DNA from: Ponticoccus alexandrii
GTDB taxonomy: Bacteria; Pseudomonadota; Alphaproteobacteria; Rhodobacterales; Rhodobacteraceae
Assembly (NCBI RefSeq): GCF_016806125.1
Contig: NZ_CP047170.1
Location: forward strand, 310,001 to 374,000
Direction of reading: 5' to 3'
Length of the DNA: 64,000 nucleotides
The notes below the pieces were generated by a model. It was not told the origin of the DNA. It made no database searches and saw only the letters and a list, made by a program, of their open reading frames with translations. Shown piece after piece: positions 6,496-47,268 of the stretch. Both the position numbers and the translations under genes were made by a program. Position 1 is the stretch's first letter; each line of letters begins with the position of its first letter.

Positions 6496-6524
6496 CCAAA
6501 GCAATAATTCACAGGGGGGCGCGC

Positions 6525-7190: not shown

Positions 7191-7204
7191 TGGAGGAGTG
7201 AGAC

Positions 7205-8739: not shown

Positions 8740-8766
8740 TCGGACCCTGACAGGAAAGCCCCGACC

Positions 8767-10023
8767 ATGTCCGCGACAATGATCTGGATCTTCGTACTGC
8801 TGCTGCTTGGCTCCGTCCCGGTGGGTTTCGCCATCCTCGGCGGCGTCGCCGGCGCGCTCTGGCTGGACGGCAAGTCCATGGCCGTGCTGGCGCAGCGGCT
8901 CTATTCGCCCACGCAGAGCTTCCCCATGCTCGCGATCCCCTTCTTCATCCTTGCCGGCAACCTGATGATGTCCGGCCGGTTCGGAACCTACCTCGTCAAC
9001 ATCGCACGCCTTCTGGTGGGCCGCTTCAAGGGCGGCATGGGGCAGGTCTCGGTGCTTGGCTCGGTGATGTTCGGCGGCGTCTCGGGCTCGGCCGTTGCCG
9101 ATGCCACGGCGCTCGGAAACGCGCTGATCCCGGTGCAGAAGGAAAGCGGCTATCCGCCCGCCTTTGCGGCGGCGGTCAATGCCTCCTCCTCCACCGTCTC
9201 GGTGTTGATCCCGCCGTCGATCCCGCTGATCCTCTACGGGCTGATCGCCAACGTCTCCATCGTCAACCTCTTCATCGCCGGCATCCTGCCGGGGGTGCTG
9301 CTGGCGGTGGGCATGATGGGCGCGGTGGCCGTGGTCGGCAAGCGGCGCAACCTGCCGCGCGCGCCGCTCGAAGGGGGATTCGCCGCCTTCAAGGGCCAGT
9401 TGTTCATCGCCTTGCCCGCCATGTTCATGCCGATTTTCGTGATCGGCACGCTGCGCTTCGGCATCGCCACGCCCACAGAGGTTAGCGTCATGGCCGTGGC
9501 CTATGCGATGGCTGTCAGCGGAATCCTCTACCGCGACCTGTCGTGGCGCGTCCTGTGGGAGGCCTCGGTCGCCACGGTGATGATGACGGGCGCGGTGATG
9601 ATCATCATCATGGCCTCGTCCACCATGCAGTGGGTGCTGACGCTCGAACGGGTGCCGCAATTCCTTGCGGAATGGGTCAGCGTGACCTTCTCGGAACCGT
9701 GGATGGTCATCATGGCGCTCAACGTGGTGATGCTGCTCATCGGCACCGTGCTCGACCTTCCGGCGGCCGTGCTGCTGCTGGGGCCGATCTTCGTCGGCAT
9801 CGGTCAGGCGATCGGTCTGGACCCGGTGCAGCTGGGCCTGATGATGGTCGTCAACCTGTCGATCGGGCTTTACACGCCGCCGGTCGGGACGACGCTATTC
9901 ATCTCGTCGGCCATTGCGCGGGTGGGGATCGGGGCGACGGTGAAGGCGCTGCTGCCATTCTACATGGTGTCCCTGCTGGTGTTGTTGCTGATCTCCTACG
10001 TCCCGGCGCTGACCTGGTACTGA
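8767..10023 (+). CDS. dctM: TRAP transporter large permease subunit (DctM)
   Basis: 418 aa highly hydrophobic sodium-coupled permease with about 12 helices. Family markers are FPMLAIPFFILAGNLM near residues 56-71, GGVSGSAVADATALG near 103-117, PPSIPLILYG near 150 and LYTPPVGTTLF near 370. The ribosome site is caggaaagcc. It is the last gene of the operon; a strong hairpin follows. Confidence 0.9.
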   Translation: MSATMIWIFVLLLLGSVPVGFAILGGVAGALWLDGKSMAVLAQRLYSPTQSFPMLAIPFFILAGNLMMSGRFGTYLVNIARLLVGRFKGGMGQVSVLGSVMFGGVSGSAVADATALGNALIPVQKESGYPPAFAAAVNASSSTVSVLIPPSIPLILYGLIANVSIVNLFIAGILPGVLLAVGMMGAVAVVGKRRNLPRAPLEGGFAAFKGQLFIALPAMFMPIFVIGTLRFGIATPTEVSVMAVAYAMAVSGILYRDLSWRVLWEASVATVMMTGAVMIIIMASSTMQWVLTLERVPQFLAEWVSVTFSEPWMVIMALNVVMLLIGTVLDLPAAVLLLGPIFVGIGQAIGLDPVQLGLMMVVNLSIGLYTPPVGTTLFISSAIARVGIGATVKALLPFYMVSLLVLLLISYVPALTWY

Positions 10024-10038
10024 GACAGGCCCACGGCT

Positions 10039-10063
10039 GGCCGGCGCGTTCTGCGCGCCGGCC
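10039..10063 (+). terminator. Hairpin after the TRAP operon
   Basis: Perfect 10-bp stem GGCCGGCGCG with CGCGCCGGCC, 5-nt loop, 15 bp after the dctM stop. It lacks a T-run. Confidence 0.6.
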
Positions 10064-10231
10064 TGTCGGGCCGGGGTCATGCTGAAGCAGGCGGACCAGT
10101 GCCCTGCCCCTGCCTTTGTCGTCAGCCCCGCCGCCCCTTCAGAACCGCGCGGCAAAGCGAAAGGCGACGACCCTGTGGGCCCTCTCACCCGGCAATACTG
10201 TCCCCGATCCCGGCAAAGCGGAATGCCAGAA

Positions 10232-10259
10232 AAGAGGGCGCGCCTGATCCGGCGCGCCC
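10232..10259 (-). terminator. Rho-independent terminator of the monooxygenase gene
   Basis: Read on the minus strand, a perfect 9-bp stem (GGGCGCGCC with GGCGCGCCC, 6-nt loop) is followed by tcttttct. It lies just beyond the stop of the minus-strand monooxygenase and faces the plus-strand hairpin at 10039-10063. Confidence 0.7.
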
Positions 10260-10269
10260 CATCGGCGCA

Positions 10270-12069: not shown

Positions 12070-12180
12070 TTCGTTTCCTCCTCATCGGCTATGTGATGCC
12101 CGGAGAGTGGCGAAACGGCCCCCGCTGACTCTACGAAAATCTTGCAGATTTGGTCGGGAAACACGGTGCTGCGAAGCAGC

Positions 12181-12208
12181 ATGTTGCACATGCAACGCCG
12201 TGCAACAT
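12181..12208. promoter_or_regulatory. Overlapping inverted repeats, probable operator of the AcoR-like regulator
   Basis: ATGTTGCAC (12181-12189) and GTGCAACAT (12200-12208) form a perfect 9+10+9 inverted repeat. Inside it GTTGCA-ca-TGCAAC (12183-12196) is a second perfect repeat. The element lies between the regulator stop and the monooxygenase start, about 110 bp upstream of the latter, the normal place for an upstream activator site. I find no convincing -24/-12 promoter after it. Confidence 0.6.
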
Positions 12209-12209
12209 C

Positions 12210-13958
12210 TCAGTCGGGCGCGCGCAACCCCTCCCTGCGGATGCGACGCAGAACGGTCGATCGGTTGACCCCAAGGCGGCGCGCGGCCCGGGCCATGTTC
12301 CAGTTGCAGGCGTCCAGAACCGCCTCCAGATCCTGCTCTGGCGCCGGGGAACGGGGCGCGGCGGGCAGGTCCGGCAGGTCGATCACCTTGGTTTCCGCCA
12401 AAGCGCAGGCCACGTCCAGCGTATTGCCGAGCGCCCGCAGGTTACCCGGCCAGTCACGCGCCATCAGCTCGGCCCGCGCCGAGGGGGTCAGCCGCATCTC
12501 GCCGCCGTCGCGGCGCCGAAGCAGCCGGTCGATCAGCCAGCCAAGGTCCTGCCTTTCGCGCAGAGGCGGGAGGGCGAGCACCGCCCCGGCCAGCCTGTGA
12601 TACAGCATCGGGGGCAATGTCCCCTGCGCCATCAGTTCGGACGCGACCCGCCCTGTCGTCGCAATCGGGCGCATGTCGGGGTGGGCATCCAGAAGCCCCG
12701 CAAGGACGCGCGCAGTCTCGGGCGCCAGATCCTCGACCCGGCGCAGCAGCAGCGTGCCGGGGCCCGTCTGGCCAGAGAGCGCGGCGCCCAGATCCTCGAC
12801 ATCGGCCCCGGCACAATCGAGGGCCACGAAACCACCGCGCCGCGAGGCCATGTGCACCGCGCGCGCCAGCTTGGTCTTGCCGGTTCCGCTTTCGCCGCAC
12901 AGCATCAGGGGCACCGGCGTCGGGGCCAGCCGCTCGGCCTGCGACAGCAGCCGGGCCATGGCCGGATCCCCCCCAGCGAGGGTGGCCAGAACACCGCCGC
13001 GCACCCGCAGGGCTGGCGCGATCGGCTGACCCGGTGCCCGGCGGGGCGCTTGCGGCGCAATCGCGTGGCCGAAAACGGCACCGCCATCGCCAAGCGCCAC
13101 CACCCGGTCCTCGGTCGGGCGATCGCGCATCAGGTCGGGCAGGTCGTCGACGCTCAACCCCAGAAGGGTGTCGATCCGCGCGCCGATCAGGCTCTTGCCA
13201 CCCGACAGCATCCGCGTCGCCGCACGCGTAGCGCCGATCACGCGACCCGCGCCGTCCAGCGACACCGCCGCCTCGGGGTCTACGTCGAGGAACTCGGGGC
13301 TGGTCGAGAATCGCAGCACCCATTCCCGGCGGCTGGCCGCCATCAGGTTCGCCATCTCGACCCGCCGCGCCGCCGCCGTCACCAGCGACATGGCGAGGTT
13401 CTGGCTGCTCTTCGGCGCAGGAGAGCGCAAAAGCGAGATGTCCAGAACCGCCGCCAGTTGCCCAAGGCTGTCGTAGATCGGCGCCGAGGTGCAGGACAAC
13501 CCTGTATGCGCGTTCCCGAAGTGATCGTCCTGATGCACGGTTACCGGCTCGCCGGTCACGATGCAGGCACCGACACCACAGGTTCCCGCAAGATCTTCGG
13601 ACCAGTTGGAGCCGAGGTAGAGCCCCGCCTTGCGCAACTCGTCCACCAGCAGGTCGTCGCCGTAGAAGTCGACGCAGACGCCCTTGGCATCGGTCAGGAG
13701 CAGCACGTAGTTCTGGCCCGTCACCTGCCGGAACAGGCCCTGCAGGCTGGAGCGCGCGGCCCCGATCATCCAGTCGGCCTGATCACGGTGAATACGGAAC
13801 TCGGTCTCGGTAACGATATGGGCCGGATCGCTGCGCGTCGGGTCCATCCCGTACAGCTCGACGCAGCGCCGCCAAGAGGCATCCACGTAGCTGTCCCGCC
13901 CGGACGCGCGCCCCTCCAGAACCTCGGCGATTTCCTCGACGTGATGCCGCTCGACCAT
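12210..13958 (-). CDS. AcoR-like Fis-family regulator with degenerate AAA+ domain
   Basis: 582 aa. Order: N-terminal GAF-like sensor (about 50-190), PAS-like region (about 195-290), AAA+ domain (about 325-540), Fis-type helix-turn-helix at the C-terminus (NMARAARRLGVNRSTVLRR). Walker A is intact (GESGTGKT). The canonical GAFTGA loop that contacts sigma-54 is absent: about 25-30 residues between the A and B motifs are missing, and the Walker B acidic pair is replaced (LLLRRVEDL). Such proteins cannot activate sigma-54 normally; they may act with sigma-70 or as repressors. The start at 13958 has GGGAGG 8 bp upstream; a longer upstream frame is unsupported. It probably controls the monooxygenase just downstream. 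Confidence 0.8.
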   Translation of the reverse strand: MVERHHVEEIAEVLEGRASGRDSYVDASWRRCVELYGMDPTRSDPAHIVTETEFRIHRDQADWMIGAARSSLQGLFRQVTGQNYVLLLTDAKGVCVDFYGDDLLVDELRKAGLYLGSNWSEDLAGTCGVGACIVTGEPVTVHQDDHFGNAHTGLSCTSAPIYDSLGQLAAVLDISLLRSPAPKSSQNLAMSLVTAAARRVEMANLMAASRREWVLRFSTSPEFLDVDPEAAVSLDGAGRVIGATRAATRMLSGGKSLIGARIDTLLGLSVDDLPDLMRDRPTEDRVVALGDGGAVFGHAIAPQAPRRAPGQPIAPALRVRGGVLATLAGGDPAMARLLSQAERLAPTPVPLMLCGESGTGKTKLARAVHMASRRGGFVALDCAGADVEDLGAALSGQTGPGTLLLRRVEDLAPETARVLAGLLDAHPDMRPIATTGRVASELMAQGTLPPMLYHRLAGAVLALPPLRERQDLGWLIDRLLRRRDGGEMRLTPSARAELMARDWPGNLRALGNTLDVACALAETKVIDLPDLPAAPRSPAPEQDLEAVLDACNWNMARAARRLGVNRSTVLRRIRREGLRAPD

Positions 13959-14573
13959 GTAACCATCCTCCCGTCCGCAACCATACAACCAAGCACCCCG
14001 CACCCAAGGAAGGACTTTGGTATCGGGCTTGACGCTGTCCGACCAACGGGAGGTCGCATGGCGGCGGTTCAGCCCCCCTGCCCTGCTCGGGACAGCGACC
14101 AACCTGCGCGGCGCGGTCATCTTGTAAACGCCACCGGGGTGCAGGTGCCGCACCCGCGGGTTCCGGCCGGACCGATCGCTGTCCCCTGCCCCGACCCTCT
14201 GGTCGTTCGACCTATGGTCACTCTTCTCGACACATCCGCCGGACATCTCACAAACAGCTGCTTGGCGGACAGCTTCGAAGCAATGGCATGCCCCCTCATG
14301 GCAACCTTCGTCGCGCGCCCTGTCCGGACGTGCATCGTCGACAGCGAATTCGAGGCCCGGGAAACCCCCTCCACGCAGAGAGATGATAAGGGGCTCGTTT
14401 CTGCCGCTCATTTTACAGCTGTAAACGTCGTCGCAAGCCGGCAAACGCCGCTGGTCACGTGCCGCTTAAAGGGGCGTTATATAGAGGAAAAATCTTGACT
14501 TAGCCTCTTGGATCAAGGCTTTTACCCTAAAGTGGCGCAAAAAAGGCCACATTTTCGAATTTGGGGCAACTAG
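13959..14573. other. Regulatory region upstream of repABC, no gene seen
   Basis: 615 bp without a convincing gene. It holds the parS-like palindrome at 14411-14426, a TTGACT hexamer at 14495-14500 that may be a -35 box for repA, and an AGCCT/AGGCT inverted repeat (14502-14506 and 14516-14520) that could be an autoregulatory operator. GC content drops towards repA. Confidence 0.5.
14411..14426. other. parS-like site 1 upstream of repA
   Basis: TTTTACAGCTGTAAAC matches 15 of 16 positions of the ideal palindrome GTTTACAGCTGTAAAC, which fits the known repABC parS form GTTNNCNGCNGNNAAC. It is the most symmetric of three copies in the repABC locus and the probable RepB-binding centromere. Confidence 0.7.
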
Positions 14574-35062: not shown

Positions 35063-35168
35063 ATGATATTTCGTCGTTGGGAGAGTAGCTAACATAGACA
35101 CTTCATCCATGTCCCGGCTTGTCTTGTTCCGCAGTGTTTGACCATTCTGCGAGGCAGGGAGGATGGGC

Positions 35169-35924
35169 ATGGACCGGGTTGAGAGCAGCGAATCAGGAAC
35201 CGGGAAAGGCGCGGATCGCGTCATCGCCTATTTCATGTCCCGCCTGCGCGAGGGTGCGCTGAAGCTGGGCGATCGGCTGCCGTCCGAGCGCGAGCTGGCC
35301 CGCGATCTTGGCGTCGGCCGTCCGCTCTTGCGCGAAGTCATGCGCTCGCTATCAATGCTGGGCGTGCTGGATATCCGCCACGGCTCCGGCGCCTATGTCG
35401 GGAAGGTCGATATCGGGTTGATGTCGGACTTCTTCACCTTCTGCCTCTCGCAAGAGCAGGATGTGCTGGACGACGTCCTTCAGGCGCGCATCGCTATCGA
35501 ATGCCAGGCGATCCGGCTGGCCTGTTCGCGCGCCAACGAACGCGACCTCGCCCGCATCAGCCAGTGGCTGAACGTGCTGCTGCACACGCTGGACGACCCC
35601 GAGAAGGGTGGCCACGCCGATTTCATGTTCCATCAGGCGGTCGTCGCCGCCAGCCACTCGAGGTCCCTTATCGTGCTGCACGGCGCGCTGGCGGACCTGC
35701 TCAAGCAAAGCCATGTCGAACGCCGCCGCACCTATCGCAGCGGCCCGATCATGCAGGATTTGGTGGAGGCGCATCGCGATGTGTTTCTGTCAATCGTGGG
35801 GAAGGATCCCGACAAGGCCGATCAACGGCTGCGGGAGCATTTCGCCATCGGCGACGAGTTGCGTCGCCAAAGCCTGATATCCGAGTACGAACGCAAGGAC
35901 TTTCGGGTACCGCACACGACCTGA
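35169..35924 (+). CDS. GntR-family regulator, FCD type (PdhR/LldR-like)
   Basis: 251 aa. The winged helix spans about residues 18-80 (LPSERELARDLGVGRPLLREVMRSL and HGSGAYVG), followed by a helical FCD domain with metal-binding HQAVVAASHS. The ATG at 35169 is about 7 nt after GGGAGG; the ATG at 35163 touches it. It precedes a TRAP operon and rpiB-like gene, so it should control them. Confidence 0.83.
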   Translation: MDRVESSESGTGKGADRVIAYFMSRLREGALKLGDRLPSERELARDLGVGRPLLREVMRSLSMLGVLDIRHGSGAYVGKVDIGLMSDFFTFCLSQEQDVLDDVLQARIAIECQAIRLACSRANERDLARISQWLNVLLHTLDDPEKGGHADFMFHQAVVAASHSRSLIVLHGALADLLKQSHVERRRTYRSGPIMQDLVEAHRDVFLSIVGKDPDKADQRLREHFAIGDELRRQSLISEYERKDFRVPHTT

Positions 35925-35947
35925 CGACACAAAAACCGGAGGAGAGA

Positions 35948-36937
35948 ATGCTTCACGCATCCACCCGGCGGCTGATGGCCGCCGCCGCTATCGGCTTGCT
36001 TGGCACCCAGGCCACCGCCGCCGATCTGCGCTATGCCCACGTCGGCGCCGAGGGCGATTTCCAGACCCGTTTCGCCGCCGAGGCCGCCGAAGAGATCGGC
36101 ACCGCCACCGATGGCGAGGTGACGATCAACGTCTTCCCGGCCAGCCAGCTTGGCAACGTGGCCGAGATGGTCGACGGGGTGAAGCTGGGATCGATCCACA
36201 TGGGGCACCACGATTTCGCCTCGCTGGCCCGCATCGTGCCCGAGATCGCGGTCTTCAACGCGCCCTTCATCTACCGTGACGGCGCCCATGCGCTGGCCGC
36301 GACCGACCCGGCCACCTCCGAGGCGCTGATCGCGCTGAACGAGCGGCTGGTCGAAGAGGGCGGTGTCCGCGTCATCGGCCGCATCTATCGCGGCGCGCGC
36401 CACATCTCGTCGAACTTCGAGATCAAGTCGCCCGACGACATGACCGGAAAGCCCTTCCGCGCCGTGCCGCTGGATCTGTGGATTTCGATGATCAAGGGCA
36501 TGGGCGCCACGCCGACGCCGGTCGAGGTCAGCGAGCTGCCGACCGCGCTGATGACCGGCCTCGTGGTGGGGCAGGAAAACCCGCTGACCATGATCTCGGC
36601 CAATGCGCTGCATGAGGTGCAGAGCCACGTCGCCATGACCGGCCACATGCAGTCGGTGCTGGCGGTCTTCGTGAACGAGAACGCATGGCAGGGCCTGACC
36701 GAAGAGCAGCGCGCGGCGATCTCCAAGGTGCTCGACGACAAGGCGCAGCAGTCGCTGGAATGGGCGCAGGCCTCCGAGGCCGACCTGATCACCGAGCTTG
36801 AGGGCAAGGGCATGGTCTTCACCACCGAGGAAAACGGTCTCGACCTCGCGGCCTTCCGCGACAAGGTGCTGCCGCAGATCACCGCGGACTTCCCCGAGTA
36901 CGAAGATTACATCGCGCAGATTTCCGCGGTGGAATGA
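35948..36937 (+). CDS. dctP: TRAP transporter solute-binding protein (DctP family), second set
   Basis: 329 aa with signal peptide ending near TQATAADLR (about residue 26). Family features: MTGKPFRAVPLDLW with the ligand-gripping Arg, and GLVVGQENPLTM. GGAGGAG precedes the ATG. The substrate may be a sugar acid or polyol derivative, since an RpiB-type isomerase gene closes the operon. A strong hairpin follows the stop. Confidence 0.87.
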   Translation: MLHASTRRLMAAAAIGLLGTQATAADLRYAHVGAEGDFQTRFAAEAAEEIGTATDGEVTINVFPASQLGNVAEMVDGVKLGSIHMGHHDFASLARIVPEIAVFNAPFIYRDGAHALAATDPATSEALIALNERLVEEGGVRVIGRIYRGARHISSNFEIKSPDDMTGKPFRAVPLDLWISMIKGMGATPTPVEVSELPTALMTGLVVGQENPLTMISANALHEVQSHVAMTGHMQSVLAVFVNENAWQGLTEEQRAAISKVLDDKAQQSLEWAQASEADLITELEGKGMVFTTEENGLDLAAFRDKVLPQITADFPEYEDYIAQISAVE

Positions 36938-36944
36938 CCCCTGC

Positions 36945-36972
36945 GCGGGCCGGGCATCACGCCCCGGCCCGC
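36945..36972 (+). terminator. Intra-operon hairpin after dctP (second set)
   Basis: Perfect 10-bp stem GCGGGCCGGG with CCCGGCCCGC and an 8-nt loop, between dctP and dctQ. No T-run. It probably protects the dctP message so that more binding protein than permease is made. Confidence 0.55.
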
Positions 36973-36989
36973 ACCAGACCGGAGACGAC

Positions 36990-37439
36990 ATGACCCGACC
37001 CCTGCAAATCCTCTGCGTGTTTCTCGTGGCGGCCCTCGTGGTGACGCCCTTCGCGCAGGTCATCATGCGCGGCGTCTTTGGCCGTGCCATGATCGGCGCC
37101 GAGGAACTGACCCGCGTGCTGCTGATCGCCTCCGTCTTCGTGTCCTACCCGCTGGTGGTGGCGGCGCGCGAGAACATCGGCATGACAGAGATCCGCGACG
37201 CCCTGCCAAGCCCCGCGCCGCGCCTACTGGCGCTGATCAACACGCTGATCGGTCTGGGCATTTCCGTGACCATGGCGGTGATCACCGTGCAGAACATCTC
37301 GGGGAACATGCGCAACGCGACGCCGACGCTGGGCATCCCCTTCTGGCTGTTCCTCGGCGCCGCCGGACTGGGTTTCGCGGGGGCCGCCGTCTACCACGCG
37401 CGCCGCTTCGTGATCCAGCTCAAGACGGGGGAAGTGTGA
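36990..37439 (+). CDS. dctQ: TRAP transporter small membrane subunit (DctQ), second set
   Basis: 149 aa, four membrane segments, starting almost at once in the first helix. The QVIMRGVFGRAMIGAEELTR region matches the DctQ loop. The start has GGAGACGAC upstream. The stop is 1 bp before the dctM start. Confidence 0.84.
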   Translation: MTRPLQILCVFLVAALVVTPFAQVIMRGVFGRAMIGAEELTRVLLIASVFVSYPLVVAARENIGMTEIRDALPSPAPRLLALINTLIGLGISVTMAVITVQNISGNMRNATPTLGIPFWLFLGAAGLGFAGAAVYHARRFVIQLKTGEV

Positions 37440-37440
37440 C

Positions 37441-38715
37441 ATGGGTCTGGTCCTGATCTTCCTCTTCCTGATCCTCTTCATGCTGGGCGTGCGCGTGGTC
37501 TACGCGATCCTGCTGCCCTCGATCCTCTATGTCTTCATGGAGGGCCTGCCGGCGGGGATGCTGGCGCAGCGGGTGACCTATGCGCTCGACAGTTTCCCGC
37601 TGGTGGCGGTGCCGGTCTTCATCTTCGTCGGCAACCTGATGAACCTGTCCGGCGTGACCGACCGCATCTTCAAGTTCGCCGATACGCTGGTGGGCCGAGT
37701 GCCGGGCGGGTTGGCGCAGGTCAACATCTTCTCCAGCCTGATCTTTTCCGGCATGTCCGGCGCGGCGCTGGCCGATATCGGCGGCCTTGGGCGGATCGAG
37801 ATCGACGCCATGAAAAAGCGTGGCTTCTCCGGCCCCTTCGCGGGGGCGGTCACGGCCGCCTCGGCGGTGGTGGGGCCGATCTTTCCTCCCTCGATCCCGC
37901 TGATCGTCTACGGATCGGTCACAAGCGTCTCGATCATTCAGCTTCTGATCGCGGGTATCGTCCCGGCGCTGATCTGCATCACGTTGCTGATGCTCACCGC
38001 CTTCGCCATCGCATTGGTACAGGACATGCCGCGCGCCGAGCGCTGGCCCACGGTCGGAGAGGTCTTTACCGCGCTCTGGCCCGCGCTGCCCGCCATGCTG
38101 GCGCCGGTGCTGATGATCGCGGGCATGATGCTGGGATGGTTCACGCCGACAGAGGCGGCCAGCGTCACGGCGGTCTACGTCATCCTCATCGCGCTGTTCT
38201 TCTACCGCGAACTGACTTGGGCGCATCTGTGGACCGCGACGGTCAACACGGCGCTGTCGACCAGCGCGATCCTGATCATCGTCGCGGCGGCCTCCATGTT
38301 CGGCTGGATCCTCGCGGTGGAACAGATCCCGCAGGATTTCGCCAAGTTCATCCTGCAATTCGCCTCCAGCCCCATCGTCCTGTTGCTGATCGCCAACCTG
38401 ATCTTCTTCGTCGCGGGCATGTTCCTCGACTCGACGACTGCGACGCTGCTGGTGGTGCCGATCATCGCGCCGCCGCTGGTGGCCGCAGGGATCGACCCGG
38501 TGCATCTGGGCATCATCGTGATCTTCAACCTGATGCTGGGGCTGCTGACGCCGCCCATGGGCCTGTCGCTGTTCCTTGTGTCGTCCATCGCCAAGGTCAG
38601 CCTGCGGCAACTGCTGGTGGCGCTCTTGCCCTTCTACCTGCCGCTGCTTCTGTGCCTCGGCATCATCACCTTCGCCGAGGACCTCGTCCTCTGGCTGCCG
38701 CGCATGTTGCGCTGA
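37441..38715 (+). CDS. dctM: TRAP transporter large permease subunit (DctM), second set
   Basis: 424 aa, about 12 helices. Markers: DSFPLVAVPVFIFVGNLM, FSGMSGAALADIGGLG, PPSIPLIVYGSV and GLLTPPMGLSLF. The ALADIGG version of the middle motif differs from the first set (AVADATA) and third set (AAADSAA), in line with different substrates. Confidence 0.9.
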   Translation: MGLVLIFLFLILFMLGVRVVYAILLPSILYVFMEGLPAGMLAQRVTYALDSFPLVAVPVFIFVGNLMNLSGVTDRIFKFADTLVGRVPGGLAQVNIFSSLIFSGMSGAALADIGGLGRIEIDAMKKRGFSGPFAGAVTAASAVVGPIFPPSIPLIVYGSVTSVSIIQLLIAGIVPALICITLLMLTAFAIALVQDMPRAERWPTVGEVFTALWPALPAMLAPVLMIAGMMLGWFTPTEAASVTAVYVILIALFFYRELTWAHLWTATVNTALSTSAILIIVAAASMFGWILAVEQIPQDFAKFILQFASSPIVLLLIANLIFFVAGMFLDSTTATLLVVPIIAPPLVAAGIDPVHLGIIVIFNLMLGLLTPPMGLSLFLVSSIAKVSLRQLLVALLPFYLPLLLCLGIITFAEDLVLWLPRMLR

Positions 38716-38737
38716 GACTTCCAACACGGAGACTGAC

Positions 38738-39187
38738 ATGAAAATCGTTATCGGATCGGATCACGCGGGTTTCCCGATGAAGGCGGGGGTGATCGAGGTC
38801 ATCCGCGCCGATGGCCACGAGGTCACGGACGTGGGCTCCTACAACCCGGACCCGGTGGACTTTCCCGACGTCGCGCGGGCGCTCTGCGAGAAGATCCTGA
38901 ACGGCGAGGCAGAGCGCGGGTTGCTGGTCTGCGGCACCGGCGTCGGCGCGGTGATCGCCGCGAACAAGGTGCCGGGTATCCGCGCCTCTGTCTGCCACGA
39001 CGCCCATTCGGCGCATCAATGCGTGGAACATGACGACGTGAACGTCATGTGCATCGGCGCGCAGATCATCGGGCCTTGGCTGGCGGCGGATCTGGTGCGC
39101 TCTTTCCTGACCGCCGAGTTCTCGACCGACCCCGATTGCCGGCGCCGGGTCGAGAAACTGAACGCGATGGACCTGGCGCGCGGCTGA
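38738..39187 (+). CDS. rpiB: RpiB/LacA-LacB family sugar-phosphate isomerase
   Basis: 149 aa. SDHAGFPMK at the N-terminus, the active-site CGTGVG near residue 67 and the CHDAHSAHQCVEHDD region with catalytic His mark the RpiB family. These enzymes interconvert aldose and ketose phosphates (ribose 5-phosphate, allose 6-phosphate, erythrulose phosphates). Its place as the last gene of a GntR-TRAP operon suggests a special sugar, not the housekeeping pentose pathway. No kinase is in the operon. Confidence 0.85.
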   Translation: MKIVIGSDHAGFPMKAGVIEVIRADGHEVTDVGSYNPDPVDFPDVARALCEKILNGEAERGLLVCGTGVGAVIAANKVPGIRASVCHDAHSAHQCVEHDDVNVMCIGAQIIGPWLAADLVRSFLTAEFSTDPDCRRRVEKLNAMDLARG

Positions 39188-39522: not shown

Positions 39523-40305
39523 GTGAACACGGAAAACCGGGACACGCGCGGGGCCGAGACCTCTTTGGCCAAGGCGATCCGGCTGCTGCCCATCGTGGCA
39601 GAGCGGAACGCGACCGGGGTCAACCTGTCGACCGTCGCGCGCAAGGCGGGCCTGACCACCGCTACCGCGCGGCGGCTGTTGCAGGGGCTCGTGGACGGCG
39701 GGCTGCTCAGCTTCGATCCCTATTCCAAGATCTACACTCTGGGCATCGGCCTCTTCGACCTCGCCGGTGCGCCCGGGTCGCCGCGGCAATTCGACGGCCT
39801 GCGCCTGCGCCTGCGTCCGGCGGTCGAAGAGACCGCTGCCGTCACGGGCGACACGGTCTATGTCACCGTGCCCCATGGCGACGAGGCGCTGTGCATCGAC
39901 ACCGAGACCGGACCCTATCCGATCTCGACCAACACCCTGCACGTCGGTTCCCGGCGTCCGCTGGGGGTGGGCGCAGGCAGCGCGGTGCTGCTGGCGGCCC
40001 TGCCCGAAGAGCGGCGCGAAAGGGTCCTGGCCGGCAACCGTGAGGTCTATGGCCGCTACGGCGAACTCACACCCACTGCCGTCAGGGACATGGTCGCGCA
40101 TTGGCAACGGCATCGCTACCTCGTCAACCGCTCGGTGATCATCGCCGACGTGGGGGCGGTCGCCGTCGCGATCTTCGACGAAACCCACCGTCTGCTGGGC
40201 GCGCTCTCGGTCGCGGCGCTGAAATCCCGGCTGACCCCCGAGCGCTGCGAAGAGGCCGTGGCGGCGATGAGCACCGCGCTGACCCGTTCCGGCTTTACGA
40301 TCTGA
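39523..40305 (+). CDS. IclR-family regulator
   Basis: 260 aa. An N-terminal winged helix (VNLSTVARKAGLTTATARRLLQGL, about 35-60) precedes the IclR effector domain (GSRRPLGVGAGSAVLLAAL). The start is a GTG with GGAGGGG upstream. It leads a catabolic and transport operon (acyl-CoA synthetase, citryl-CoA-lyase-like, SDR, TTT), which it should regulate. Confidence 0.86.
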   Translation: MNTENRDTRGAETSLAKAIRLLPIVAERNATGVNLSTVARKAGLTTATARRLLQGLVDGGLLSFDPYSKIYTLGIGLFDLAGAPGSPRQFDGLRLRLRPAVEETAAVTGDTVYVTVPHGDEALCIDTETGPYPISTNTLHVGSRRPLGVGAGSAVLLAALPEERRERVLAGNREVYGRYGELTPTAVRDMVAHWQRHRYLVNRSVIIADVGAVAVAIFDETHRLLGALSVAALKSRLTPERCEEAVAAMSTALTRSGFTI

Positions 40306-40316: not shown

Positions 40317-41840
40317 ATGTACCCCATCCACTTCTTCGACCGCGCGGCGCGCCTCTGGCCCGAGGCCACGGCGGTGGAATGCGGCGCCGAGACGCTAAGC
40401 TATGCCGCGCTGCACGCCCGTGTTCAGGCTCTGGCCAGCGGCCTGCAGGCGCTTGACCCCGCGTTCGGTTCCCGGGTCGGGGTCTGCTGCTACAACTCGA
40501 TCGAACACCTCGTCAGCTGGCTGGCGGTGCTGGCGGCGGGCAAGGTCTGGGTGCCGTTGCAGCCGATGAACGCGCAGGACGAGCTGCTGCGCGCGATCAG
40601 CTTCACCGGCGCAAGTCTTGTGATCGTCCAGCCCGAGACGGCGGCCAAGCTGGCGGGCGCCTCCGCGCGCTTCGTCATGGCCACGGCCCAGGCGGGGGAG
40701 GGCACCACCGCCACGCTGGAGCGCGACCACGCCGGGCAGGCGCCTGTGCCCTGCGCCCTGCCTCTGTCCGCGACGCAGGCGATCAAGTTCACCGGCGGCA
40801 CCACCGGGCGACCGAAGGGCGTGATGCAGCCCTATCGCGCGTGGAACACCAACATCGCCACGCAGATCGCCGCCTGGTCCCTTGACGCGGGCCAGCGCTA
40901 CCTTGCCGCCGCGCCGATCACGCATGGTACCTCGACCTACATCCTGCCGACGCTGGCGACGGGGGGCACCATTGTGCTGCTTGACCGGCCCCGCCCCGAA
41001 GAGACGCTGAGCGCGCTTCAGACTCAGGCCATCACCACGACCTTCGTGCCGCCCACCGTGCTTTACATGCTGATGGAGCTGGAGACGGTCCGCGACAGCA
41101 GCTACCCGGATCTGCGCAACCTGATCTATGGCGCCGGGCCCATGCGCCCCGAGGCCATCGCCCGCGCGCAGGAGATCTTTGGCCCCTGCGTCGCCTCGAC
41201 CTATGGCCAGACCGAGGCGCCGCAGATCGCCACCATGATCAGCGCGTCGGAACTGGCCGACCCCGCGAAACGGACCTCGGTCGGGCGCGAGACCATGCTG
41301 AGCCGGGTCGAGATGATGGACGCTGAAGGCCGCATCCTGCCCCCCGGCGAGACCGGAGAGATCGTCATTCGCGGCGACCTTCTGATGACCGGCTACTGGG
41401 ACCAGCCAGAGGCCACGGCGCAGGCGCTGAAGGACGGCTGGCTGCATACCGGCGATCTGGGGATGAAGGATGCGGACGGCTACGTCTTCATCCGGGGCCG
41501 CGCCAAGGAGATGATCATCTCCGGCGGCTTCAACGTCTACCCCGCGGATGTCGAGACGGTGATGGGCGAACACCCCGACGTGGTCGACTGCGCCGTCTAC
41601 GGCGTGCCGGACGACAAATGGGGCGAGGCCGTCCATGCGGCCGTGCAGCTGCGCGGCGGGGCCACCCCCGACGCGGCGGGCATCATCGCCTTCGTCCGCG
41701 AAAGGCTGGGCCCGGTGAAGACCCCGAAATCGGTGCGGTTCATGGACGACCTGCCGCGCAACGCCATTGGCAAGCTCCAGAAGGCAGAGCTTGTCGCACG
41801 ACACGAGACCGCCCCGGCGGTCGCAGCACGGGAAGGATGA
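40317..41840 (+). CDS. Acyl-CoA synthetase (AMP-forming)
   Basis: 507 aa ANL-superfamily ligase that activates a carboxylic acid with ATP and CoA. Motifs: phosphate loop FTGGTTGRPKGV (near 162-173), YGQTEAP, GWLHTGDLG, RAKEMIISGGFNVYP, and the catalytic lysine in NAIGKLQK near the C-terminus. The ATG is 11 bp after the IclR stop. The next gene is a citryl-CoA-lyase-like protein, so the ligase probably makes the CoA thioester that is then cleaved. The acid is probably the one taken up by the TTT transporter. Confidence 0.85.
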   Translation: MYPIHFFDRAARLWPEATAVECGAETLSYAALHARVQALASGLQALDPAFGSRVGVCCYNSIEHLVSWLAVLAAGKVWVPLQPMNAQDELLRAISFTGASLVIVQPETAAKLAGASARFVMATAQAGEGTTATLERDHAGQAPVPCALPLSATQAIKFTGGTTGRPKGVMQPYRAWNTNIATQIAAWSLDAGQRYLAAAPITHGTSTYILPTLATGGTIVLLDRPRPEETLSALQTQAITTTFVPPTVLYMLMELETVRDSSYPDLRNLIYGAGPMRPEAIARAQEIFGPCVASTYGQTEAPQIATMISASELADPAKRTSVGRETMLSRVEMMDAEGRILPPGETGEIVIRGDLLMTGYWDQPEATAQALKDGWLHTGDLGMKDADGYVFIRGRAKEMIISGGFNVYPADVETVMGEHPDVVDCAVYGVPDDKWGEAVHAAVQLRGGATPDAAGIIAFVRERLGPVKTPKSVRFMDDLPRNAIGKLQKAELVARHETAPAVAAREG

Positions 41841-41842: not shown

Positions 41843-42607
41843 ATGACCGCCGCCACCCCCACGACCTCGCTCTGCCGCTACACGGATACCGAGATATTCT
41901 ACCGCAACCGCAATCTGGTCGATGACCTCATGGCAGGCGACGCGGATTTCGTCAGCGTCATGATGGGCCATATCCTAGGCCGCGCGGTCAGCGCCGCCGA
42001 GCAGCGGGTCATGCATGCGATCCTGATCGTGATGATGGAGCACGGGCTGACCCCCAGCGCCATTGCCACGCGGTCGGTCTATATGTCCGCGCCCGAGAAC
42101 CTTCAGGGCGCGGTGGCGGCGGGGCTTCTGGCCGTGGGCAGCCAGTTCGTCGGCACCATCGAGAACAACGCTCGCCTGTTGGCCGAGCTGGCCCCGCTGG
42201 AGGGACAGGCGCAGGCCGACCGCGCCGCCGAAATCGTGCGCGAGCACCGCGCCCACAAGGCGCATCTGCCCGGCTTTGGCCACCACCTGCACCGGCCCGA
42301 CGATCCGCGCGCGCTGAAGCTGATCGAAATCGGCCGCGCCGAGGCCGCCTCGACCCGGCACGTGGACGCGCTTCTGGCGCTGTCGCAGGCGGTCGATGCC
42401 GAATTCGGGCGCCACATCACCATCAACGCCACCGGGGCCACGGCGGCTCTGTTGGGTGACATGGACATCCCCGTGGCCCTGATGCGCGGCTTTGCCGTCG
42501 TCTCGCGGGCGGCGGGGCTGGTGGCGCATATCGCCGAAGAGCAGCGCAAGCCCTCGGGTCGCTACATCTGGGAAACGGTCGACAAGGCCGTGCCCTTCGA
42601 GGAGTGA
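41843..42607 (+). CDS. Citryl-CoA lyase-like protein (citrate synthase family)
   Basis: 254 aa, much shorter than citrate synthase (~430) and the size of citryl-CoA lyases. Conserved are the first active His in MMEHGLTPS and the second in GFGHHLHRPDDPRA, plus GLVAHIAEEQ. The catalytic Asp expected in the NVDG-type motif is replaced: here it reads NATGAT, with Thr. So the chemistry may differ from citrate synthase or the enzyme uses another base. The ATG at 41843 has GGAAGG at 6 nt; the ATG at 41837 overlaps the ligase stop. It would split the acyl-CoA made by the upstream ligase into acetyl-CoA and an oxo acid. Confidence 0.78.
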   Translation: MTAATPTTSLCRYTDTEIFYRNRNLVDDLMAGDADFVSVMMGHILGRAVSAAEQRVMHAILIVMMEHGLTPSAIATRSVYMSAPENLQGAVAAGLLAVGSQFVGTIENNARLLAELAPLEGQAQADRAAEIVREHRAHKAHLPGFGHHLHRPDDPRALKLIEIGRAEAASTRHVDALLALSQAVDAEFGRHITINATGATAALLGDMDIPVALMRGFAVVSRAAGLVAHIAEEQRKPSGRYIWETVDKAVPFEE

Positions 42608-42611: not shown

Positions 42612-43325
42612 ATGAGCGACCACGCCATCGTCACCGGCGGCGCGCGCGGCATCGGCGCGGCGATCGCGGAACGGCTGACCCGCGACGGGTTCTCCGTGGC
42701 CGTGGTCGACCGCCTCGCGCCGGAACACGATTTCCTGTCAGAGGCCATCGAGGTCGACCTTTCGGATGCCGGGGCGACCCGCGCCGCGCTGGAAGTTTAC
42801 TGTAAGGGCCGGCAGGTCACGCGGCTGGTCAACAATGCGGGCATCGTCCTGCCCGCTCCGGTGGAAGAGACCGATCCGCTGTCCATCGATGCCGTTGCGG
42901 CAGTGAACCTGCGCGCGCCGCTGATCTGCCTGCAGGCGGTGCTGCCCGCGATGAAGGCCGCGGGGCGGGGGCGGATCGTCAATATCTCCAGCCGTGTCGC
43001 GCTGGGGAAGGAGTTGCGCACCGCCTATGCTGCCTCGAAGGCCGGGCTGCACGGCATGACCAAGACATGGGCGCTGGAACTGGGCCGCCACGGCATCACC
43101 GTGAATGCCGTCGGTCCCGGCCCCATCGCGACAGAGCTTTTCAACGCGGTGAATCCCCCCGGCGACCCGCGCACCGATAGGATCGTCCAGACCATCCCGG
43201 TCAAGCGCACGGGAACGCCCGGGGACGTGGCCGAAGCCGTGGGCTTCTTCTGCTCGGAGGGGGCGGGCTTCGTGACGGGGCAAGTGCTCTACGTCTGTGG
43301 AGGCATGACAATCGGCTCCGCCTGA
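42612..43325 (+). CDS. Short-chain dehydrogenase/reductase
   Basis: 237 aa classical SDR: cofactor motif TGGARGIG (8-15), NNAG near 76-79, catalytic S in ISSRVAL and YAASK. It starts 5 bp after the lyase gene. It probably oxidises or reduces a hydroxyl on the substrate or on a product of the lyase. A second SDR closes the operon. Confidence 0.87.
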   Translation: MSDHAIVTGGARGIGAAIAERLTRDGFSVAVVDRLAPEHDFLSEAIEVDLSDAGATRAALEVYCKGRQVTRLVNNAGIVLPAPVEETDPLSIDAVAAVNLRAPLICLQAVLPAMKAAGRGRIVNISSRVALGKELRTAYAASKAGLHGMTKTWALELGRHGITVNAVGPGPIATELFNAVNPPGDPRTDRIVQTIPVKRTGTPGDVAEAVGFFCSEGAGFVTGQVLYVCGGMTIGSA

Positions 43326-43377: not shown

Positions 43378-44361
43378 ATGACCATGACCAGAAGACAGAT
43401 CGCCGGGGCGCTGGCCGCCGTGTCGATGCTTTCGCTCGGCAGCGCCGCCATGGCCGCCGACTATCCGACCAAGCGGATCACCATCATCGTGCCCTACAGC
43501 GCGGGCGGGTCCACCGACATCCTCGCCCGGCAGGTGGCCGACGGCATGACGCAGGTGCTGGGCGAGACGGTCACGGTCGAGAACCGCCCCGGCGCGGGGG
43601 CCACGCTGGGCACCACCATGGCCGCCAAGGCCCGGCCCGACGGCTACACGCTGTTCATGGGGCAGGTCTCGTCCCACGGTATCGCGCCCGCCGTCTACAA
43701 GAACCTGCAATATGACGCGGTGGCGGATTTCGCGCCGATCAAGCTGCTGATCTCCATCCCCAACGTGATGGTCGTCAACAAGGACAGCCCCTACCAGACT
43801 GCCGCCGAGTTCCTTGATGCGGCGAAAGAGGGCAACAAGACCTTCGGCTCCTCGGGTGTCGGCAGTTCGATCCACCTGTCGGGCGAGATGTTCAAGGCGC
43901 GCACCGGGGCGCAGATGACGCATGTGCCCTTCCGGGGCAGCGGCGAGGCGGTGCCCGCGCTCTTGGCGGGTGACGTGGACGTAATGTTCGACAACCTGCC
44001 CTCGGCCATGCCACACATCCAGTCCGGCGCCCTGCGCGCGCTGGCGGTGACCACGCCCGCCCGGTCGGACCAGCTGGGTGACGTGCCGACGCTGGACGAG
44101 CTCGACATCTCCGAGCTTGACGGCTTTGCCGCGCGGTCGTGGTTCGGCCTGCTGGCCCCCGCTGGCACCGACCCCGAGATCGTCGCGACCCTGTCCGACG
44201 CGCTGGATCAGGTGATCGCGACCGAGGGCTTCACCAGCTTCGCCGCCACGCGGGGCGCGCAGATCGAGGGCGGCTCGCCCGAGGACTTCGCCGCCTACAT
44301 CGACTCGGAACTGTCGAACTGGAAGACCGTCGTCGACGAGGCGGGCGTCACTGTCGAGTAA
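43378..44361 (+). CDS. tctC: Tripartite tricarboxylate transporter binding protein (TctC)
   Basis: 327 aa periplasmic protein with signal peptide ending near SAAMAADYP (about residue 27). TctC hallmarks: ITIIVPYSAGGSTDILAR near the start of the mature protein, VENRPGAGATLG, and HVPFRGSGEAVPALLAGDVD. It binds a carboxylate for import. AAGGAGGAG precedes the ATG. A hairpin follows the stop. Confidence 0.9.
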   Translation: MTMTRRQIAGALAAVSMLSLGSAAMAADYPTKRITIIVPYSAGGSTDILARQVADGMTQVLGETVTVENRPGAGATLGTTMAAKARPDGYTLFMGQVSSHGIAPAVYKNLQYDAVADFAPIKLLISIPNVMVVNKDSPYQTAAEFLDAAKEGNKTFGSSGVGSSIHLSGEMFKARTGAQMTHVPFRGSGEAVPALLAGDVDVMFDNLPSAMPHIQSGALRALAVTTPARSDQLGDVPTLDELDISELDGFAARSWFGLLAPAGTDPEIVATLSDALDQVIATEGFTSFAATRGAQIEGGSPEDFAAYIDSELSNWKTVVDEAGVTVE

Positions 44362-44433: not shown

Positions 44434-44949
44434 ATGAGCACATCGGACACCACGCACCGCCGGGGCCGCCAGAGGGAGATCGTCTTTGCCGCGCTGACCC
44501 TGCTGGCGGCGATCCTCTTCGGTCTGTTCGTCATCCCGGCGGGGGTCACGCAACCGGCCTCTGTCAAGCATCTGCCGCTTTCGCCGGTTTTCCTGCCCTA
44601 CCTGCTGACCATCGCCGTGGGTGTCTTTGCGCTGGTCCATCTGGCCGAGGCGCTGTTTGCGCCGCATATCCCCGACGAGGACGCGCAGGCGCCGGACCCG
44701 CACCCGCGCTGGCCACTGCGCCTTGCGGCGCTGACCGGACTGCTGCTGATCTACCTGCTGTTGCCCGAGACGCTTGGGATGCTGCTGACCGCGATCCTCG
44801 TCACCATCGTCCTGATGGCCATGGGCGGCGAACGCCGCCCGCAGATCCTGCTGGGCGTGGGCATCGCCGTGCCACTGGTGGTCTACCTGTTCTTCGTCCA
44901 CGTTGCGCAGGTCCCCATGCCCGAGGGTCTCTTCGAGGGGTGGTTCTGA
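44434..44949 (+). CDS. tctB: Tripartite tricarboxylate transporter small membrane protein (TctB)
   Basis: 171 aa with four membrane segments and a charged N-terminus. The gene is between tctC and tctA, 1 bp before tctA. Small subunits are poorly conserved; position and topology carry the call. Confidence 0.8.
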   Translation: MSTSDTTHRRGRQREIVFAALTLLAAILFGLFVIPAGVTQPASVKHLPLSPVFLPYLLTIAVGVFALVHLAEALFAPHIPDEDAQAPDPHPRWPLRLAALTGLLLIYLLLPETLGMLLTAILVTIVLMAMGGERRPQILLGVGIAVPLVVYLFFVHVAQVPMPEGLFEGWF

Positions 44950-44950: not shown

Positions 44951-46453
44951 ATGTGGGAAAACATCGCCACCGGCTTCACCCTCTTCCTGACGGTCCAGAA
45001 CATCCTCGCGATCACCGTGGGCGTCTGCCTTGGCGTGACGGTGGGGGCTATTCCGGGCCTCACCGCGACCATGGCGGTCGCGCTGGCGCTGCCCTTCACC
45101 TTTGCCCTCGACCCGGTCACCGGCATCCTGCTGCTGGTGGGCGTCTACAAGGGCGGGGTCTTCGGCGGCTCGATCACCGCGATCCTGATCCGCGCGCCCG
45201 GCACCCCCGCCGCCGCCTGCACGTTGCTCGACGGTTATCCGCTGGCGCAGAAGGGACAGGCGGGCAAGGCCATGAACATGGCGCTCTATGCGTCGTGCAT
45301 CGCGGATTTCCTGTCCAACCTCTCGCTGATCTTCTTCGCCAGCATGATCGCGGGGCTGGCGCTGGCCTTCGGCCCGCCGGAATACTTCTGGCTGATCTGC
45401 TTCTCGCTGACCGTGGTGATCTCGATCTCGGGGTCTTCCCTGACCAAGGGGCTGATCTCCGGCCTTTTGGGGCTTCTGACCTCGACCATCGGGCTGGATC
45501 TGGTCTACGGCACGCAGCGCTTCACCTTCGACAACTTCAACCTGATGGCGGGGGTCAGCTACATCCCGCTGCTGATCGGCCTCTTTGCGCTGCCCGAGGC
45601 CATCGATTTCTACATGCGCCGCATCAAGCCGCATGTCGTCAAGCCGGCGGACCGCAGCCGCGTGACCCGCGACGAGTTCCGCCGCAGCCTGCCCGCGATC
45701 CTGCGCGGCAGCTTTATCGGGGTCATCATAGGCACCATTCCCGGCGCGGGCGCCACGGCGGCGGCCTTCCTGTCCTACGGCGAGGCGCGGCGCACGTCGA
45801 AATCACCCGAGACCTTCGGCAAGGGCAATATCGAGGGCGTCGCGGCATCCGAGGCCGGCAACAACGGCGTTGCCGGGGCCACGCTGATCCCGCTGCTGGC
45901 GCTCGGCATTCCGGGGGATGTGGTGACGGCGGTGATCCTCGGCGCCTTCATGCTGCAGGGCCTCACCCCCGGCCCGCTGATGTTTCAGGACAACATCACC
46001 ATCATCTACGCCATCTTCATCGGCATCATGCTGAGTTCGCTGGTGCTGTTCGGTTCGGGCAAGCTGGCGATCCGCTACTTTGCCAAGATCGCCGACATCC
46101 CGCGTCACATCCTTCTGCCCATCGTCCTGCTGTTCTGCGTCTTCGGCAGCTACGCGGTGCAAAGCCAGATGTTCGACGTGGGCGTGATGCTGGCCTTCGG
46201 CGTGCTGGGCTACCTGATGATGAAGATCAACATGGCCGCCGCGCCCTTCCTCATGGGCTTCATCCTGGGCCCTCTGTTCGAGGACAACCTGCGGCGGTCC
46301 TTCCTGATCTCGGAGGACATCGGCATCTTCTTCCGCAGCCCGATCTGCTGGATCTTCATCGCCATCACCCTTTTCTCGCTTTTCGTGGGGGTCCGCCGCG
46401 AGGTGCGCAGCACGCGCTCGAAACGCCGCGCCCTGCGCGAGGGGCAGGCGTGA
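44951..46453 (+). CDS. tctA: Tripartite tricarboxylate transporter large membrane protein (TctA)
   Basis: 500 aa with about 12 helices. TctA markers: GVTVGAIPGLTATMAVALALPFT near the N-terminus, GTIPGAGATAAAFLSYGEA and the GIPGDVVTAVILGA segment in the middle. Sodium- or proton-coupled uptake of a tricarboxylate or other carboxylate. The stop overlaps the GTG of the next SDR gene. Confidence 0.9.
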   Translation: MWENIATGFTLFLTVQNILAITVGVCLGVTVGAIPGLTATMAVALALPFTFALDPVTGILLLVGVYKGGVFGGSITAILIRAPGTPAAACTLLDGYPLAQKGQAGKAMNMALYASCIADFLSNLSLIFFASMIAGLALAFGPPEYFWLICFSLTVVISISGSSLTKGLISGLLGLLTSTIGLDLVYGTQRFTFDNFNLMAGVSYIPLLIGLFALPEAIDFYMRRIKPHVVKPADRSRVTRDEFRRSLPAILRGSFIGVIIGTIPGAGATAAAFLSYGEARRTSKSPETFGKGNIEGVAASEAGNNGVAGATLIPLLALGIPGDVVTAVILGAFMLQGLTPGPLMFQDNITIIYAIFIGIMLSSLVLFGSGKLAIRYFAKIADIPRHILLPIVLLFCVFGSYAVQSQMFDVGVMLAFGVLGYLMMKINMAAAPFLMGFILGPLFEDNLRRSFLISEDIGIFFRSPICWIFIAITLFSLFVGVRREVRSTRSKRRALREGQA

Positions 46454-47268
46454 CGGCCCGCGACTTCGACGGGCAGACCGCCATCGTCATCGGTGCGGGG
46501 GCGATCGCCACGGGCATCGGCATCGGGCGGGCCATCAGCATCGCGCTGGCGCGGGGCGGGGCGCATGTGGTGGCCGCCGATGCCAGCCTTGCCTCTGCCG
46601 AAGAGACCGTGGCCCTGATCCGGGAGGAGGGCGGGCAGGCCGAAGCGCGGCTGGTGGACGTGCTGGACGACGACAGTCTCACCGGGCTGATTGCGGGTGT
46701 GGACCGCGACCGGGGCCGCATCGACATCCTGCAGTGCAACGTGGGTCTGGGCAAAAGCGGGCCGTCCGATCAGACCAGCGCCGCCGATTGGCGCCGGATC
46801 AGCGATGCCAACCTGACCTCGCTGCACGTGGCGGCGCAGGCGGCCTTGCCTGCGATGCGGCGGCAGGGCAGGGGGGTGATCACCGTGACCTCTTCGATCG
46901 CGTCGATCCGGCATGTCGGCTATCCACATCTGGCCTATGGCGCGACCAAGGCGGGCGCGAACCAGTTCGCCCGTGCGCTGGCGGTCGAGCTTGCGCCCGA
47001 GGGCATCCGCGTCAACGCCATTGTCGCGGGGCTGATCGACACGCCGCGAATCGGCGTGACGCTGGCCAGAAGCTACGGCAGCCAGACCGAGGATCAGATG
47101 CGCGCCGCCCGCGCCCGCCAGTGCCCCATGGGCCGCATGGGCAGCGCCTGGGACATCGCCGAGGCGGCGGTCTTCCTCGCGTCGGACCGCGCGGGCTACA
47201 TCACCGGGACCGAGATCGTCGTGGACGGCGGGCTGTCGGCCAGCGTCCGGCAGGTTGTGGACGGTTGA
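46450..47268 (+). CDS. Short-chain dehydrogenase/reductase with altered motifs
   Basis: 272 aa SDR starting with GTG in an overlap with tctA. The cofactor loop has an insertion (GAGAIATGIGIGRAI), and the usual NNAG is CNVG. The catalytic Ser and YGATK are present, with a C-terminal GTEIVVDGG typical of SDRs. It is the last gene of the TTT operon; it may act on a second hydroxyl of the imported acid. Confidence 0.85.
   Translation: MTARDFDGQTAIVIGAGAIATGIGIGRAISIALARGGAHVVAADASLASAEETVALIREEGGQAEARLVDVLDDDSLTGLIAGVDRDRGRIDILQCNVGLGKSGPSDQTSAADWRRISDANLTSLHVAAQAALPAMRRQGRGVITVTSSIASIRHVGYPHLAYGATKAGANQFARALAVELAPEGIRVNAIVAGLIDTPRIGVTLARSYGSQTEDQMRAARARQCPMGRMGSAWDIAEAAVFLASDRAGYITGTEIVVDGGLSASVRQVVDG

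Follow-up and report, generated by a model that had tools for sequence, protein, structure and literature searches.

What does an enzyme of the citrate synthase fold do when threonine stands where its catalytic aspartate is expected? The question is raised by a gene of Ponticoccus alexandrii at positions 41843-42607 (plus strand) of the window, that is, the whole 64,000-nucleotide stretch of DNA analysed here. According to the literature, His274, His320 and Asp375 are named active-site residues of citrate synthase (PMC8455617), its active-site histidines comprise His235, His238, His274 and His320 (PMC4524684), and Asp375 deprotonates acetyl-CoA (PMC5830745). A preliminary description, made from the sequence alone, had suggested that the gene encodes a retro-Claisen enzyme modified to act on a citrate analogue. 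We consider, with a probability of about one half, that the product is a CoA-thioester carbon-carbon lyase using a hydroxy acid other than citrate and having an altered acid-base chemistry.

The gene product and its fold

The gene is an open reading frame without breaks encoding a citryl-CoA-lyase-like protein of 254 amino acids. The gene could start equally well at another in-frame ATG, at 41837, where it would overlap the stop codon of the preceding ligase gene in the sequence ATGA. The protein hits the Pfam model for the C-terminal citrate synthase domain (PF00285, 4.9e-25), and a sequence search among solved structures retrieved the citryl-CoA lyase of Hydrogenobacter (6hxp) as the top match (8.5e-29). 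The structure predicted from a 13-sequence alignment (mean pLDDT 72.8, pTM 0.71) also has 6hxp as its top structural match (Z 20.6, 222 residues, 3.6 Å); ATP-citrate lyase modules reach Z 17.2-18.8 and citrate synthases Z up to 16.1. The same genome encodes a full-length citrate synthase elsewhere.

The closest known enzyme is thus Ccl of Hydrogenobacter thermophilus (6hxp), like the window protein a small stand-alone protein of this fold, with 30% identity over the 222 aligned residues. Its activating partner, citryl-CoA synthetase, belongs to another family than the AMP-forming ligase of the window. ATP-citrate lyase contains the same fold as its citrate synthase homology module (in 6qcl and 6hxk, among others), joined there to an acyl-CoA synthetase portion of the NDP-forming kind; the window protein stands alone, and no lyase fused to a labelled neighbour was found in the 82 neighbourhoods of relatives described below. 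Citrate synthase and 2-methylcitrate synthase have the PF00285 domain in common with the window protein, which is much shorter.

Active-site residues

The motif N195-A196-T197-G198 (42425-42436) aligns with the NVDG or NVDF of 6hxp, of the Chlorobium ATP-citrate lyase (6qcl) and of citrate synthases. T197 (codon ACC, 42431-42433) stands at the position of Asp375 in pig citrate synthase and Asp1026 in human ATP-citrate lyase (ACLY), as the preliminary description had stated. H67 (42041-42043) and H147 (42281-42286 together with H148) fall on the histidines of the motifs DHE/DHG and GFGHR, R156 on the arginine of the DPR motif and R222 on that of SRxxG. F102 (42146-42148) aligns with the histidine of GPxHGG. 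These assignments are the same in a profile alignment to the citrate synthase that the genome itself encodes and in a multiple alignment with 6hxp and 6qcl. The pig numbers attached to the motifs (His238 for H67, His274 for F102, His320 for H147, Asp375 for T197) are in part our assumption, and H900, R976 and R1065 of ACLY presumably correspond to H67, H148 and R222, given the structural match of residues 842-1081 to 8-238 and the human sequence.

Hence, the earlier view that both active-site histidines are kept is right for H67 and H147 but not for a third, His274. From the His274-His320-Asp375 set, the window protein keeps only H147, F102 and T197 occupying the two other places. The counterparts of H67, H147, R156 and R222 hold the oxo-acid in citrate synthase, and all four are found in citrate synthase, 2-methylcitrate synthase and the window protein, which is changed at the His274 and Asp375 sites. 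Ccl (6hxp) also has these four residues, together with E233, and differs in that it has Asp, a His at the 102 site and an Arg at the 148 site. The Chlorobium enzyme (6qcl) has Phe at the His274 site too, yet, unlike the window protein, it retains both the Asp and the Arg of GHR. The window protein therefore has the fold of a citryl-CoA lyase and lacks both the catalytic Asp and the Arg that follows the GxGH histidine.

Loss of the aspartate across a clade

The NATG motif occurs in 13 of 13 relatives from genome contigs (63-100% identity), so T197 is no sequencing error. It is also present in three Burkholderiales plasmid records (53-59%) and in remoter relatives (about 35-46%) from Alphaproteobacteria, Rhodococcus and a haloarchaeon, and a private mutation was ruled out along with an error. 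T197 is constant in a 14-sequence alignment (A1) that includes the haloarchaeal protein, the operon is kept in relatives, and dN/dS of the window gene against six homologues is 0.16-0.25, indicating purifying selection. With these observations, a decaying pseudoenzyme, to which the missing catalytic residues might point, is hardly credible.

Matches to the query P0001 (E 1e-12), Asp-less or Asp-bearing, were found in 44 of 397 phylum-drawn and 123 of 394 family-drawn genomes; the residue state was read for matches with a locus identifier and for regions fetched later by place. Out of 103 loci (match E 1e-8), four were dropped, three as copies of the window (L002, L017, L018) and one as lying outside 200-330 amino acids; the 99 others, the window protein and three anchors (6hxp, 6qcl and the own citrate synthase) gave an alignment of 103 rows. 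Asp is missing in 76 of them (Thr 47, Ser 19, Asn 6, Ala 4), the rows representing the top-scoring loci of each search rather than a random sample.

Two further sites change with the Asp. Position 102 is Phe (49), Val (15), Ile (10) or Tyr (2) in the 76 Asp-less rows, versus His in 26 of the 27 Asp-bearing rows, the exception being the Phe of 6qcl. Position 148, which is H148 in the window protein, is Pro (55) or His (21) in Asp-less rows, versus Arg (26) or Lys (1) in Asp-bearing ones. The His274 and R976 sites are thus both changed in every Asp-less row. In contrast to the single-gene, single-residue change first described, the loss is neither specific to this gene nor limited to one residue. 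H147 and R156 are present in all 103 rows, H67 in 76/76 Asp-less and 26/27 Asp-bearing rows, and R222 in 75/76 and 27/27, respectively. Since the residues that hold the oxo-acid are kept while the pair that enolizes acetyl-CoA is changed, the pair can be said to be rebuilt in the Asp-less clade. The redesign of the active site across a clade is real and well supported.

Residues fixed in the Asp-less clade revealed no clear replacement acid in the 103-row alignment. R77 (42071-42073) and E233 (42539-42541) are constant in its 76 rows; they were dropped as candidates for a new acid since both also occur in Asp-bearing rows, R77 in 5/27 (among them the own citrate synthase) and E233 in 2/27 (6hxp and one other). 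H67, otherwise nearly invariant, is replaced by Ala in one Asp-bearing protein (L068, motif NVDG).

A 73-row tree was built with the trait columns removed, after the manual removal of 30 rows, which comprised 24 close relatives, five citrate synthases and 6qcl. It places the 56 Asp-less rows on one side of a branch with support 100/99; this branch is itself long, and the tree carries a long-branch warning for L113, L114, L052, L047, L050, L116 and 6hxp. The split is present in 100% of 200 bootstrap trees, and a single change suffices to explain it. This is also the case in a quick tree of all 103 rows rooted on the own citrate synthase, which makes the loss a derived state. Judged by its distribution, the loss of Asp is the mark of a broad protein family present in bacteria and archaea and no local oddity.

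The operon and its conservation

The gene is the third of eight, all on the plus strand. It is preceded by genes for an IclR-family regulator (39523-40305), found at the same place in relatives, and an AMP-forming acyl-CoA ligase (40317-41840), whose stop overlaps the possible upstream start of the lyase-like gene. It is followed by genes for a first SDR oxidoreductase (42612-43325), the TctC-type solute-binding protein (43378-44361), the small membrane subunit TctB (44434-44949) and the large membrane subunit TctA (44951-46453) of a TTT transporter, and a second SDR oxidoreductase (46450-47268). The preliminary description had placed it between an acyl-CoA ligase and an SDR near a tricarboxylate transporter, and this is what we find, the three transporter genes coming after the first SDR. 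Just upstream, the region 35163-39187 encodes a regulator of the GntR/FCD type, a complete TRAP transporter (DctP, DctQ, DctM) and an RpiB/LacAB-type isomerase, a second uptake unit, for an acid or sugar acid, beside the TTT one.

The eight-gene order is kept in five Roseovarius contigs (L005-L009), in a Rhodovibrionaceae MAG (L013) and in a near-copy (L004), and seven of the eight genes are found on a short Rhodobaculum contig (L011). The near-copy (JAFKDC010000026.1), labelled Enemella evansiae (Actinomycetota), has the window operon in unchanged order at 96-100% protein identity and looks like a mixed label or assembly.

The AMP ligase adjoins the lyase in 13 of 13 genome-contig relatives. 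Two of these (L014, L015) have the ligase-lyase pair alone, and the pair thus looks like the core of the system. Beyond ligase and lyase, 13 queries (E 1e-3) found no window-operon protein in L014, L015 or L010, the sequence after the lyase gene being short in L010 (1.4 kb) and L015 (0.4 kb). In L014 (1857-8560) and L015 (5379-8759), the pair forms an insertion into a common housekeeping locus: yebC precedes it in both, and an outer-membrane protein gene, then ruvC, ruvA and ruvB, follow it in L014. Of the three Burkholderiales records, two (L043, L044) retain the genes for TctC, ligase, lyase and SDR, and the third (L045) those for ligase and lyase. In the latter (5475-14459; Cupriavidus necator pBB2), the pair is followed by genes for a maleylacetate reductase, an amidohydrolase and an intradiol dioxygenase, a context that suggests an aromatic substrate.

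Reading the substrate from the ligase or from TctC was given up because the nearest solved structures carry no specificity; they are generic fatty-acid, feruloyl and malonyl ligases for the former and Bug/terephthalate-type binding proteins for the latter. Importer, ligase and regulator look catabolic. This speaks against a synthase whose enolate would come from decarboxylation of a malonyl-CoA-like donor, making a base unnecessary; such an enzyme, which has as its sole supporting point that it would account for the loss of both enolization residues, is very improbable.

Neighbourhoods of the wider family

Neighbourhoods of 82 relatives (36 Thr/Ala, 26 Ser/Asn, 20 Asp-bearing) were labelled by BLAST to 63 hand-picked references, so that divergent partners are missed; they include near-copies, with five lyase pairs at least 95% identical within L123/L127, L128/L155 and L052/L124/L125. 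An activating gene lies within 3 kb of the lyase in 27/36 Thr/Ala and 19/26 Ser/Asn members (46/62 Asp-less members together) and in 12/20 Asp-bearing ones; by the BLAST labels, none was found within this distance in 9/36 and 7/26 of the two Asp-less groups. The activating genes fall into three kinds unrelated to one another (AMP ligase, family III CoA-transferase and NDP-forming ligase), and the kind was confirmed by Pfam for all of the seven proteins tested, of which five were family III CoA-transferases, one was an NDP-forming ligase and one an AMP ligase. Within 6 kb, a component of a TTT or TRAP transporter is present in 13/36 Thr/Ala, 18/26 Ser/Asn and 13/20 Asp-bearing members. The lyase is therefore associated with CoA activation and acid transport in the Asp-bearing sister group too, and the association does not set the Asp-less clade apart. 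Many Thr/Ala members sit additionally in longer acyl-CoA degradation clusters, genes for acyl-CoA dehydrogenase, hydratase or MaoC proteins being found within 6 kb in 20/36 of them, versus 1/26 Ser/Asn and 1/20 Asp-bearing members.

Five Asp-less lyase genes (L112, at 4474-5277, L123, L127, L128 and L155) belong to a recurring cluster with biotin carboxylase, HMG-CoA-lyase, SDR and acyl-CoA dehydrogenase genes, in which two lyase-like genes of different folds stand together. In L052, L124 and L125, a lyase of the NAAG type adjoins an NDP-forming ligase gene, an arrangement like a split ATP-citrate lyase.

This resemblance, the frequent pairing with an activating enzyme and Model 2 for ACLY, as set out in PMC10115795, would favour a non-catalytic role: the protein would serve the ligase or CoA-transferase by loading CoA or acting allosterically, in line with a proposal made for human ACLY and its citrate synthase homology domain. 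Such a role is quite improbable. Indeed, activating partners from three unrelated families speak for a CoA-ester intermediate in common and not for docking, no fusion with a labelled neighbour was found in the 82 neighbourhoods, and H67, H147 and R156 are invariant in the 76 Asp-less rows, as expected of an active site.

A role of the lyase in place of hydroxyacyl-CoA dehydrogenase and thiolase, that is, a thiolase-free degradation, was set aside because the control in the own genome was weak: by comparison of coordinates, a thiolase lies within 6 kb at only 2/10 acyl-CoA dehydrogenase places. With this control and imperfect queries, a thiolase was detectable in 1/22 (L016) of the neighbourhoods that contain genes for an acyl-CoA dehydrogenase, an enoyl hydratase or a MaoC protein. 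The motif filter used for query selection kept one of five own-genome loci. The products of L177, L179, L180 and L016 and one of L181 each found a match in one or more of the other thiolase queries, neither of the two L178 picks matched anything, and the other L181 pick, which hit ligase genes, was disregarded.

A possible reaction

From the fold, the residue changes, the clade and the operon, we infer a CoA-ester substrate, the cleavage of a carbon-carbon bond and the direction of the reaction. The TTT transporter would import a hydroxy acid, and the AMP-forming ligase, encoded just before the lyase, would make its CoA ester. The window enzyme would then cleave this beta-hydroxyacyl-CoA by a retro-aldol/retro-Claisen reaction, yielding a carbonyl acid together with acetyl-CoA or one of its homologues, and the SDRs may act on the substrate or on the carbonyl product. 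H147, H67, R156 and R222 would hold and polarize the hydroxy-acid part. The replacement of Asp by T/S/N/A, of His274 by F/V/I/Y and of GHR by GHP/GHH suggests that the enolate of the acyl-CoA part would be protonated by water or by another residue, not by Asp. A hydrophobic residue at 102 and a small one at 197 could leave space for another acyl part and, with a rebuilt enolization pair, this part is probably unlike that of citryl-CoA. The retro-Claisen enzyme for a citrate analogue suggested at the outset fits the operon of ligase, lyase and transporter and the four kept residues.

The strongest point against a carbon-carbon lyase comes from human ACLY, whose D1026A mutant is inactive according to PMC10115795; on a simple reading, an Asp-less enzyme should not cleave. 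However, the same paper argues for an allosteric role of this Asp, so that the mutant gives no verdict on a protein that evolved without it. Further points against are the lack of a clear replacement acid in the alignment, the Asp-less neighbourhoods in which no activating gene was found within 3 kb, and the presence of such genes beside Asp-bearing relatives as well.

The order of ligase then lyase fits any enzyme consuming a CoA ester and not a carbon-carbon lyase alone. The fold might have been reused for thioester hydrolysis, dehydration or a like step, for which His147 and the binding of a carboxylate would suffice. The enolization pair is gone in 76/76 rows in which H67, H147 and R156 are nevertheless kept, and the biotin-carboxylase subgroup already has an HMG-CoA-lyase gene alongside; both would agree with such a step. 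On the other hand, a lone ligase-hydrolase pair, as would occur in L014 and L015, would be a futile cycle, and citrate synthase probably uses its Asp in the hydrolysis of citryl-CoA as well. We therefore regard this as unlikely and retain a lyase for a CoA-activated hydroxy acid as the preferred reading.

Tentatively, the whole Asp-less clade could be a separate class of citrate-synthase-fold enzymes, namely lyases for a range of beta-hydroxyacyl-CoAs that work without the Asp/His enolization pair. Their acids would be those imported by TRAP and TTT transporters and those of the dehydrogenase-hydratase pathways, and the class would be hidden under the name of citryl-CoA lyase.

Annotation as citryl-CoA lyase

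The five top NCBIfam models for the window protein are all named citryl-CoA lyase. It scores 264.5 bits on the subfamily model NF004868, above the curated cut-off of 193, and 367.6 bits on its top model, the equivalog NF004867, under the curated cut-off of 409. Five other tested Asp-less proteins also pass NF004868. On NF004867, L006 scores 369.2 bits and the Cupriavidus metallidurans protein L044 passes with 495.7. As for Asp-bearing proteins, L023 goes to NF004864, and L068, whose best model is NF004869, obtains 208.6 bits on NF004868. With one of two Asp-bearing proteins tested passing NF004868, the models do not split the family cleanly by the Asp. Both kinds are named citryl-CoA lyase, and the NF004867 and NF004868 names are annotation.

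These names are one reason to consider an ordinary citryl-CoA lyase, a stand-alone enzyme that needs no Asp and whose substrate, citryl-CoA, would be supplied by the partner ligase. Citrate is a frequent cargo of TTT transporters, which is a second point in its favour. A third is that the role of Asp1026 in ACLY is disputed between general base and allosteric residue (PMC10115795). Nevertheless, we judge it to have a low probability: the score falls short of the nearest equivalog's cut-off, the sites of His274 and R976 are changed as well, and the widely differing partners across the clade suggest varied substrates. Among the matches listed in a search of full-text literature, we found no tested enzyme with Thr at this position and ordinary citryl-CoA activity, no characterized Asp-less member and no tested NF004867 or NF004868 member; PRK06224 was not mentioned in the literature searched. 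The search omits most subscription journals, which makes it weak evidence that a tested Asp-less enzyme does not exist.

ACLY is a drug target, and the role of its Asp1026 is in dispute (PMC10115795). A large natural clade of stand-alone proteins in which this Asp and two other sites are replaced makes the role of the Asp testable without engineered mutants. Pathways of acid degradation not yet described may stand behind the genes for Asp-less lyases, and the name given by NF004867 or NF004868 is by itself no evidence for citrate cleavage or for steps of the reductive TCA cycle. Cupriavidus metallidurans CH34 is a small example of this naming problem: PMC2864759 states that it encodes no pair of citryl-CoA synthetase and citryl-CoA lyase, whereas its megaplasmid carries the Asp-less homologue L044, which lies above the equivalog cut-off of NF004867.
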